Part shown: positions 9,299 through 28,478 of the stretch, one piece after another
How the letters are laid out: every line of letters begins with the position of its first letter
Numbering within the stretch: position 1 is the stretch's first letter
Virus record (IMG/VR): IMGVR_UViG_3300030085_000218
Span: 1 to 28,478 of that record
Strand: one strand, 5' to 3'
Source: a virus
Length of the DNA: 28,478 bases
Position numbers and translations under genes: made by a program
The notes under the pieces: generated by a model
Seen by the model: the letters and a program-made list of their open reading frames with translations, nothing else
Databases searched by the model: none
What the model was told of the DNA's origin: nothing

Positions 9299-9775
9299 TT
9301 AGAACCTGCCTAGCCATCGTGCTATGTGTGATACAAACGGTAGCAAGGTAGCTGCCATAAACAAGTTCACACCTGTGTGTGCCATTGCAATACGCAACGT
9401 ATCTCCTTTAGGCATACCGTCTGACACAAACAAACCTGCCAGCCATATTGTACCTGTTGTACCTATGTTCGCGCCTAACACTGCGGCGATGGCTGCTGGT
9501 AAAGGCAAGGCACCAGAGGCAACCAGCGCAATGATGGCTGTAGTAGACAGGCTAGACGATTGCCACAGCAGTGTCATTATGATACCACCTGCAAACATGT
9601 ACAACGGGTTGCCCAAGAACCATGAAAGATGTTCTATGTTGCCCATAGATTTCATGCCACCAGAGAATGTCTTCAAGCCTACGTAGAATATAATCAAGCC
9701 TACTAAAGCTGTTATCACAGGGTTTCCTAAGTCCATCTTACTGACTCTCTTCCATAGTTTCTTTCCCTCCGTCAC
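9299..9775 (-). CDS. Na+/phosphate cotransporter family protein, half-length (single QSSS repeat)
   Basis: The 158-residue membrane protein has about four hydrophobic segments. It carries the signature of the Na/Pi-cotransporter family (NptA/PF02690 type): WQSSSLSTTAII followed by VLGANIGTTGT. Full-length cellular members have two such repeats in inverted topology; here only one is present. It would act in the host inner membrane, as an oligomer or with a host subunit, and may raise phosphate uptake during infection. The GTG start is chosen because AGGTGA lies 7 bases upstream and it forms a GTGA overlap with the MazG stop. An internal ATG at 9736 is the alternative. It is the last gene of the minus-strand set. 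The family call is strong; transport activity is inferred. Confidence 0.85.
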   Translation of the reverse strand: MTEGKKLWKRVSKMDLGNPVITALVGLIIFYVGLKTFSGGMKSMGNIEHLSWFLGNPLYMFAGGIIMTLLWQSSSLSTTAIIALVASGALPLPAAIAAVLGANIGTTGTIWLAGLFVSDGMPKGDTLRIAMAHTGVNLFMAATLLPFVSHIARWLGRF

Positions 9776-26989: not shown

Positions 26990-27370
26990 TCAAGCGGACT
27001 TGCGGTGTGCTGCCGCACCTGTCGGCGCACAGGCAAGGTCTGCAATGTCAGCGACGTTGAACTCGCCCAGATCAACATTGTGGTTTTTGCGATCCAGCGT
27101 CTTGTCAATACCGGTCAGCAACATCTCGAATGTTGTGATCGAATTGGACAAAATGCGGGTGCCAAACTCTGCCTTGATCTGACGAGCCGCAACGCGGCTG
27201 GCCTTGTAGCAACGCATTTTGGACAGCTTGTTGCCCGTCTTGCGCTTGTATTTGGTAGCAACGCGAGTGAACTTGTTCTGGTTGTGTTCAGACAAGTTCT
27301 GACCGGTAAGACCGGTGCCTTGGAACCAATATGCTACGTTGACATTTACATTGATGGCTTGCTTAGACAT
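26990..27370 (-). CDS. Basic hypothetical protein, first gene of the early block
   Basis: The 126-residue basic protein has an N-terminal strand region (SKQAINVNVNVAYWFQGTGL) followed by Lys/Arg-rich helices (NKFTRVATKYKRKTGNKLSK; KASRVAARQIKAEFGTR) and a polar end. GAGGTGA precedes the ATG. It is the first gene read from the 27.4-kb promoter and so probably the first protein made from this strand. That fits a host-takeover or nucleic-acid-binding role, but I recognise no family. Confidence 0.68.
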   Translation of the reverse strand: MSKQAINVNVNVAYWFQGTGLTGQNLSEHNQNKFTRVATKYKRKTGNKLSKMRCYKASRVAARQIKAEFGTRILSNSITTFEMLLTGIDKTLDRKNHNVDLGEFNVADIADLACAPTGAAAHRKSA

Positions 27371-27395
27371 AATTTCACCTCGTGGTTGGTAGGTT

Positions 27396-27412
27396 GTCAG
27401 GTCGTGCCTGAC
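27396..27412 (-). promoter_or_regulatory. Leader hairpin of the early transcript
   Basis: GTCAGG (27396-27401) and CCTGAC (27407-27412) form a perfect 6-bp stem with a 5-base loop inside the leader between the promoter and the first early gene. It ends about 25 bases before the ATG and leaves the GAGGTGA site free. It may stabilise the transcript. Confidence 0.4.
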
Positions 27413-27419
27413 GGGTTAT

Positions 27420-27437
27420 GGGTGTGACATTACACCC
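27420..27437. promoter_or_regulatory. Operator-like dyad over the -10 of the early promoter
   Basis: GGGTGT (27420-27425) and ACACCC (27432-27437) are perfect 6-bp arms around GACATT. The dyad centre coincides with the -10 box of the minus-strand promoter, the usual place for a repressor site. No repressor gene is seen in the window. Confidence 0.4.
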
Positions 27438-27455
27438 CCTAACAACACCTGTCAA
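27427..27455 (-). promoter_or_regulatory. Sigma-70-like promoter of the first early block
   Basis: On the minus strand a perfect TTGACA (27450-27455), a 17-base spacer and TAATGT (27427-27432; the -10 match is only three of six). It would start near 27420, about 50 bases before the first early gene. Confidence 0.6.
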
Positions 27456-28217
27456 GAGTGTACCGGCGACAATGCTTAACTGCCCAAAAGGACTAGCGCA
27501 CCGTCGCCGGTATCTTGTCAATCCCGATTTTCACCTGACTTGCTATCGTCAGTTTTTCACACCTCTTGCGTCAGCGGCATGTCCAAGGACAGCTAGGGCA
27601 TCTGCGGTTGGTATAGATACTTGTCGGGTCTGAATGTAGATTTGACCGGTAGCACTGTACGCGGTAGACCAGACAACATACAAAACTGGTCTTTTGATAT
27701 TACGCCCTACCCGCATTGACCACCCCGGAGATTTTAGCTGGGTCTTGTCTTGTCATACACCTGCCCCCTTGGCGGCATGTGCTGTTTCAGGATAGTTTCC
27801 CAGCCTTGACAGACTCCGGTAGCCTACGCCCTGTCCGCATGTCAGCGGGAGTTCGTTTCTTTATAGACGGCTGGCCATTTATCGCCACCACTTTAGCCGT
27901 CTGTCGTCTTGGCCACTTTATAGTCGGATCAATTCGCCTTCCCGACTGTCCCTAGAGCATAATTCAGACCGCCCTAGAAAGTCAACAGGTTTTTTTCTAT
28001 CCTCATTCGCTCGCTATGTGGGCAAACCCTAGCCTCGCAAGCTACACTGAATTTTATGGGCCTATCAGTGTCCGGCCTAGTCCGTCTTCAAGTGCCAGCC
28101 CTACGTCGCCAATGGCAGTCTTAGGGTTATCTGGCTATCGCAGAAGGCCACTGTTGAGCCGGTTGGCTGGTCGGGTTGTCCCCTGCGATGTTTTTATCCT
28201 GCCTGAACCGGATTTTT
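27456..28217 (+). ncRNA. Gene-free region with extensive nested stem-loops: candidate large structured RNA
   Basis: No plausible gene is present. Stems are 27461-27470/27503-27512 (10 bp perfect), 27535-27539/27548-27552 followed by TTTTT, 27666-27672/27686-27692 (7 bp) followed by TTT, and 27725-27730/27814-27819 enclosing 27737-27742/27799-27804. Further stems are 27865-27872/27895-27902 (8 bp) and 27922-27927/27942-27947. One long-range stem, 28025-28031/28122-28128 (7 bp), encloses two hairpins (28044-28050/28065-28071, 7 bp; 28093-28097/28113-28117). Last is 28137-28142/28184-28189 followed by GTTTTTAT, interleaved with CCGGTT 28159-28164/AACCGG 28206-28211 followed by ATTTTTATT. T-tracts after stems favour the plus strand. 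It may be one RNA of about 750 nt or several. Some short stems will be chance. Confidence 0.45.
27956..27985 (-). promoter_or_regulatory. Possible minus-strand promoter inside the structured region
   Basis: On the minus strand TTGACT (27980-27985), an 18-base spacer and TATGCT (27956-27961). If active it would transcribe the left part of the structured region from about 27949 toward the early genes, opposite to the direction suggested by the T-tracts. The match is moderate. Confidence 0.35.
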
Positions 28218-28478
28218 ATTGCAACAAAAAAGATTGTTAATGTTTTCAATGGTTTAAGGGGTTAACCCATTGATTTTATTGATAAATAAAAATGTGATTT
28301 TGATGCATTTTATTTGAGAATGTAATGAATACAACGGGTTAGCTAGGGTAGGGGTGTGGCTTGGTGAAAAATTCGATTTTTATATATAAAGGTGTAAGGC
28401 GATTTCTGTTCTGATATGCACCGCCTTGACGTTTTCACGACAATTTCGGTGAATTGTGCTTTTGTGCTAACACATTGA
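28218..28478. other. A/T-rich, gene-free stretch with dyads: possible origin or divergent promoter region
   Basis: The region is far richer in A and T than anything else in the window (for example TTTTATTGATAAATAAAAAT). It contains a 10-base palindrome GGGTTAACCC (28259-28268) inside a larger dyad TCAATGG/CCATTGA (28246-28252/28267-28273), and an AAGGCG/CGCCTT stem (28397-28402, 28431-28436). A plus-strand TTGGTG-N18-TATAAA (28361-28390) could be a promoter for genes beyond the window. Its place next to the early block suggests a replication origin or the start of the divergent late operon. No gene is seen. Confidence 0.4.

Follow-up and report, generated by a model that had tools for sequence, protein, structure and literature searches.

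Conserved pseudoknotted RNAs with predicted promoters of their own ahead of the early genes in an HMO-2011-type phage

In this study, we analyzed a window of 28,478 bases, which comprises viral record IMGVR_UViG_3300030085_000218 and represents a fragment of a ~55-kb phage genome. Our results suggest that two noncoding RNAs are probably produced there from promoters of their own upstream of the early operon, and that they are free-standing and act in trans. RNA A (~200 nt, 27990-28191) and RNA B (~490 nt, 27461-27950) would be read from the minus strand just ahead of the early genes, each from a sigma70-like promoter of its own, and both appear to fold into compact pseudoknotted structures maintained by selection. 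All features described below are located on the minus strand unless stated otherwise.

Conserved RNA structure on the minus strand

The region had originally been described as gene-free and built of nested stems, and every stem named there is present. Absence of genes was confirmed for about 740 bases, in which almost all homologues have stop codons in almost all frames; in the window, the gene-free stretch covers at least 27371-28478. No reading frame remains open throughout the homologues, and the length of most indels is not divisible by three; together with the stop codons, this rules out conserved coding. For the comparison, 14 related loci were recruited via the protein of the first early gene and further loci via RNA-based patterns. 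Iterated nhmmer searches resulted in 45 matching loci, which reduced to 23 distinct RNA B sequences with near-complete cores; these were aligned (alignment A1).

The structure of RNA B comprises 64 base pairs in 14 helices, including one pair of crossing helices, and 95.1% of the cells are paired across the 23 homologues. Pairing drops to 28-42% of cells when partners are slid by 1-3 columns. Changes on both sides were found in 146 cells compared to a mean of 40.4 after shuffling, and in 32 pairs compared to 20.4, values that none of 500 shuffles reached in either case (the shuffle control leaves kinship in, the slid control preserves it, and neither is a phylogeny-aware test). The alignment used for testing had also served to derive the structure, with one locus, L148, held out; this sequence, outside model building, fits the structure with zero broken pairs. 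The comparison of related phages and the compensatory changes thus bear out a conserved RNA structure in this region beyond the shuffled and slid controls.

Consensus folding with RNAalifold gave -33.3 kcal/mol with covariation gain on the minus strand, compared to -8.6 ± 3.1 for shuffled columns and -21.4 kcal/mol for the plus strand of the same alignment. Single-sequence folds of the minus strand had z scores of -3.1 to -3.5. Read on the minus strand, the cells of RNA B contain 160 G-U and 16 A-C combinations; these counts would be reversed on the plus strand, which places the RNA on the minus strand. The original prediction of a plus-strand RNA with T-rich ends has to be revised: the plus-strand fold is weaker and carries A-C mismatches, promoter-like sites are absent from this strand, and the T-rich tracts correspond on the minus strand to promoter P1 and to an A-rich stretch just upstream of promoter P2 (see below). 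Plus-strand terminators were also rejected, as T-runs are no more common than in shuffled sequences.

Architecture of RNA A, RNA B and their predicted promoters

RNA B consists of a conserved 3' domain (81% mean column identity) and a 5' domain (59%) that exists in two types and is swapped as a module. Its 5' pseudoknot (27911-27947) is formed by AGTCGG/CCGACT and by the loop sequence GGC, which pairs with a downstream GCC; all 102 cells are paired, and changes on both sides were found in seven of the nine pairs. Adjacent to it, the hairpin GACGGCT...AGCCGTC (27866-27901) corresponds to the 8-bp stem that had been noted before near 27865-27902. The stem exists, but it belongs to a variable module in which 71% of cells are paired and the alignment is uncertain.

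The central pseudoknot (27725-27840) is composed of five helices. Helix 27826-27840 (ATGC/GCGT), which covaries over all 23 sequences, is crossed by helix 27808-27835 (GACAGG/TCTGTC), and this one is crossed in turn by helix 27725-27819 (CCGGAG/CTCCGG). Enclosed in the latter are GCTGGG/CCCAGC (27737-27804), which covaries, and CAGCAC/GTGTATG (27754-27784). In 10 sequences of one type, which form a clean subset, the central helices are 95-100% paired, and all but one of the five show compensatory changes; for 27808-27835 and 27725-27819, pairing amounts to 98-100% and three pairs each are changed on both sides. The long-range pair first recognized at 27725-27819 is therefore a covarying helix, present as CCGGAG/CTCCGG, CCAGAG/CTCTGG, CTAGAG/CTCTAG or CCGAAG/CTTCGG.

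Further downstream, the hairpin GACCAG...CTGGTC (27667-27691) shows changes on both sides in four of six pairs. The conserved 3' domain (27523-27628) is closed by the stem CCCGA/TCGGG and contains nested helices ending in a CUUG tetraloop as well as the hairpin CTGAC/GTCAG followed by GGTGAAAAT. The perfect 10-bp stem at 27461-27512 (TACCGGCGAC/GTCGCCGGTA; ATGGGGCAAC/GTTGCCCCAT in L016) proved to be the terminal helix of RNA B, with 97% of cells paired in the 23 homologues and compensatory changes.

RNA A is structured and mosaic between relatives. In the early sense, RNAalifold gave -17.5 compared to -2.8 ± 1.3 for shuffled alignments. Its proposed start lies near ATCGCAG, which forms a stem with the partner CTGCGAT (ATCGAAAG/CTTTCGAT in L006). 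An H-type pseudoknot (28044-28077) is built from GGCC/GGCC crossing ACACTGA/TCAGTGT, with the A-rich loop CATAAAAT. Both crossing helices covary, and relatives replace them together, for example by CCCC/GGGG with TCCGC/GCGGA in L008 and by GACC/GGTC with ACCAC/GTGGT in L017. In the stem-loop AGCTTGC...GCGAGC (28009-28043), 100% of cells are paired and three of six pairs show changes on both sides. The unit of a closing stem and two hairpins predicted at 28025-28128 contains real stems and falls within RNA A, where the H-type pseudoknot and the stem-loop covary. Taken together, covariation of crossing helices supports the presence of three or more pseudoknots in RNA A and RNA B.

The promoter pattern TTGAC[AT]-N16-18-TA...T was found 56 times in the early sense and 0 times in the opposite sense in 21 kb from 23 loci, while shuffled sequences contained a mean of 0.52. 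In the window, we propose three sigma70-like promoters on the grounds of sequence, supported by strong conservation. P1, the putative promoter of RNA A, is read as the -35 box TTGCAA (28219-28224) separated by a 17-nt spacer from the -10 box CAGGAT (28196-28201). It is weak by consensus in the window; homologues keep the 17-nt spacing with TTGACT/CAATCT, TTGCAT/TAGTCT or TTGTGT/TTTAAT. P2 (27956-27985, TTGACT-N18-TATGCT) would drive RNA B, and its spacer of 18 nt in the window is 17 nt in nearly all relatives. The A-rich stretch just upstream of its -35 box (27988-28001) is A-rich in most homologues and might be UP-element-like. P3 (27427-27455, TTGACA-N17-TAATGT) is the candidate promoter of the early operon and is conserved in nearly all homologues with a spacer of 17-18 nt. 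Instead of the single RNA envisaged originally, the region thus holds two units, each behind a predicted promoter of its own, and a third predicted promoter for the early genes. We found no intrinsic terminator on the minus strand of the region, so that transcription of both RNAs could continue into the early genes. For the same reason, the RNA ends given here are putative: those of RNA A are placed by the promoters and the 3' end of RNA B by the terminal stem at 27461.

Gene context and distribution in related phages

The window phage is an HMO-2011-type podophage. Its DNA polymerase, a family A enzyme with a DnaJ-type insert (the DnaJ_CXXCXGXG match is below the Pfam cut-off, at the expected position), shares 75% identity with the polymerase of Puniceispirillum phage HMO-2011. 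The window also encodes an integrase, a DnaB-like helicase and a B12-type ribonucleotide reductase, and its gene order is collinear with that of HMO-2011. A polymerase with DnaJ insert, an integrase and divergent late and early blocks are likewise found in HMO-2011-type genomes (PMC9038755, PMC6918029). We additionally observed a partial gene for a Na+/phosphate cotransporter (9299-9775, minus strand; Pfam PF02690, E 1.5e-15) that adjoins a MazG gene and is a possible auxiliary metabolic gene.

The early genes are located on the minus strand, and the structured region lies immediately upstream of the first one (26990-27370, minus strand, downstream of P3), which encodes a 126-aa product without Pfam or PHROG match. 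Other carriers of RNA B have unrelated genes in its place, and at least four first genes without mutual relationship follow RNA B. About 1.5-1.8 kb separate the last late gene from the first early gene between the divergent blocks of relatives; the window contig stops short of the late block.

Carriers of RNA B are mostly metagenomic relatives, which have either of two 5' domain types and exchange RNA A units while keeping the overall layout; an extra promoter-plus-RNA unit is present in some. No cultured phage carrying RNA B was found in the phage collection, which was also searched with two homologues, and bacterial genomes gave no match to the one exact pattern searched. The RNA model R1 did not detect RNA B in cultured HMO-2011-type phages; HMO-2011 and the cultured CRP phages differ from the window phage in lacking RNA B and in having a shorter or different intergenic region. 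A term search of the two main papers on HMO-2011-type phages (PMC9038755, PMC6918029), within the open-licence literature, revealed no mention of a noncoding RNA.

The intergenic regions of relatives contain further elements. Loci L019, L024 and L052 carry a strongly diverged RNA in the same place with the same promoter spacing and as many as four promoter-like sites reading in early direction; it has the terminal stem in common, and the RNA B model barely detects this group (E 3.4 for L024). Sister HMO-2011-type phages without RNA B (L083, L025, L053, L003, which is HMO-2011, and others) have an intergenic region of ~0.85-0.95 kb with another conserved element, CTATCTTCTTACGGTTTTACGGGATA..CCCCTTGAAC..TAGTGAAAGGGG.., located ~500-900 bases away from the late gene MAKKSVKL...; both its consensus fold and its G-U counts (29 vs 6) suggest an RNA from the opposite strand. 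In HMO-2011 (NC_021864), gp72 and gp73 overlap on opposite strands of the intergenic region (53665-53928), and at least one of them may be an annotation artefact over noncoding sequence. The intergenic regions of L051 and L097 (about 1.5-1.65 kb) contain repeated ATTATGTCTTATAC units and have no similarity to RNA B. In addition, the first ~400 bases beside the late gene of relatives hold iteron-like CACTTAAGTG repeats and a conserved GTGGTTAACACT..TGATCTGTGTA block, which are common to sister phages and possibly represent an origin or a late control region.

Relation to known RNAs and proposed role

Scans with Rfam 15 at gathering and permissive E-value thresholds, covering the window, six homologous loci and HMO-2011-type loci, revealed no match to any family, including GOLLD, ROOL, OLE and HEARO. 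Homology to these four RNAs, which had been considered at the outset, is thus unsupported by Infernal covariance models in the window and its homologues. The general idea of a large, multi-branched, pseudoknotted RNA in a gene-free phage region is supported by covariation across related phages. We regard RNA A and RNA B as an apparently new family among the large structured RNAs of phages; they may work like GOLLD or ROOL but are not members of these families.

GOLLD (RF01998) has a conserved 3' and a variable 5' region, and RNA B resembles it in this respect as well as in being large, phage-borne, noncoding and pseudoknotted (PMC12286853). However, many GOLLD RNAs exceed 800 nt compared to ~490 nt for RNA B and often lie within or close to tRNA clusters of phages or prophages, whereas RNA B is not located at one and precedes early genes behind a predicted promoter of its own; the 28.5-kb window, a fragment of the ~55-kb genome, contains no tRNA genes. 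ROOL (RF03087), of which the solved form has 659 nt and several pseudoknots and the function is unknown, likewise occurs in a phage setting (PMC12286853). RNA B is similar to it in size class, phage setting and the presence of several covariation-supported pseudoknots, a general resemblance only, and differs in the lack of a covariance-model match and of nearby tRNA genes and in its locus. The put RNA of phage HK022 and the CI RNA of P4, of about 65-80 nt, are structured RNAs heading an early operon. RNA A and RNA B are similarly placed but measure ~200 and ~490 nt, and a separate predicted promoter lies between RNA B and the genes.

The put RNA of HK022 controls its operon by antitermination, and RNA A and RNA B might similarly be the 5' part of early-operon transcripts, serving as a long cis-acting leader in antitermination, RNA stability or RNase processing. 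Both RNAs are co-directional with the early genes and directly upstream of them, a stable terminal stem lies just before P3, and no terminator was found between RNA B and the genes, which keeps this explanation as the main alternative. We nevertheless regard it as rather doubtful, since P3, conserved in nearly all cases, lies between RNA B and the first gene and would shorten the leader to about 50 nt, the genes that follow RNA B are unrelated to each other, and both RNAs are far larger than known put sites. The separate P3 and the variety of genes behind RNA B favor free-standing RNAs over a leader tied to a gene. Such RNAs could also assemble with themselves in the manner of GOLLD, ROOL and OLE without being homologous to them, a possibility that is compatible with action in trans. 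We consider it unlikely: similar size, phage setting, several pseudoknots and the conserved 3' and variable 5' regions known from GOLLD (PMC12286853) are set against the missing Rfam match, the absence of tRNA genes from the window and the lack of a long palindromic kissing loop. Dimerization by a palindrome was rejected, as RNA B contains none of 8 nt or more.

Two further explanations appear less probable still. P4 CI RNA is a small product of the early leader and silences incoming early transcripts, and RNA-based immunity or lysis-lysogeny control of this kind would fit the position next to the early operon, the presence of an integrase and the apparent absence of a repressor gene; immunity types would also be in keeping with the rapid exchange of modules. 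We judge it very unlikely, because the longest complementarity between the RNAs and early transcripts is 12 nt and not beyond chance, and an antisense action on phage transcripts was dismissed for the same reason. Still more remote is a DNA-level element, such as a replication origin, attP or packaging site, with inverted repeats that mimic RNA stems. The location between divergent gene blocks and the nearby iteron-like TTAAGTG repeats of relatives would agree with it, but the excess of G-U over A-C combinations is explicable only by RNA of one strand, and the promoter-like sites are strand-specific. A CsrA decoy was also discarded: ~735 nt contain only 11 GGA motifs, two of them in an ANGGA context.

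We return to trans-acting RNAs as the preferred explanation. The host RNA polymerase would make both RNAs once the DNA enters, presumably early in infection, and they would then most likely bind a host factor such as the ribosome, RNA polymerase or another protein. Their modules are swapped between phages, which would be expected if the partner differed between hosts; module exchange with a conserved layout is expected if an RNA adapts to a changing partner. More tentatively, and with somewhat less than even confidence, we suggest a previously undescribed family of large, modular multi-pseudoknot RNAs that is made at the start of infection from its own promoters and disarms or takes over a host machine, with modules matching the respective hosts.

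If true, one of the most abundant phage groups of the ocean would carry an RNA with interchangeable modules for different hosts. GOLLD and ROOL are known as large phage RNAs without established function; here, the clear gene context, with predicted promoters at the head of the early operon in an abundant marine phage group, and the natural variation of modules make timing, partner and mechanism testable. A new Rfam entry can be made from the present alignment and secondary structure, which could also reveal such RNAs in phages whose non-coding regions were passed over.
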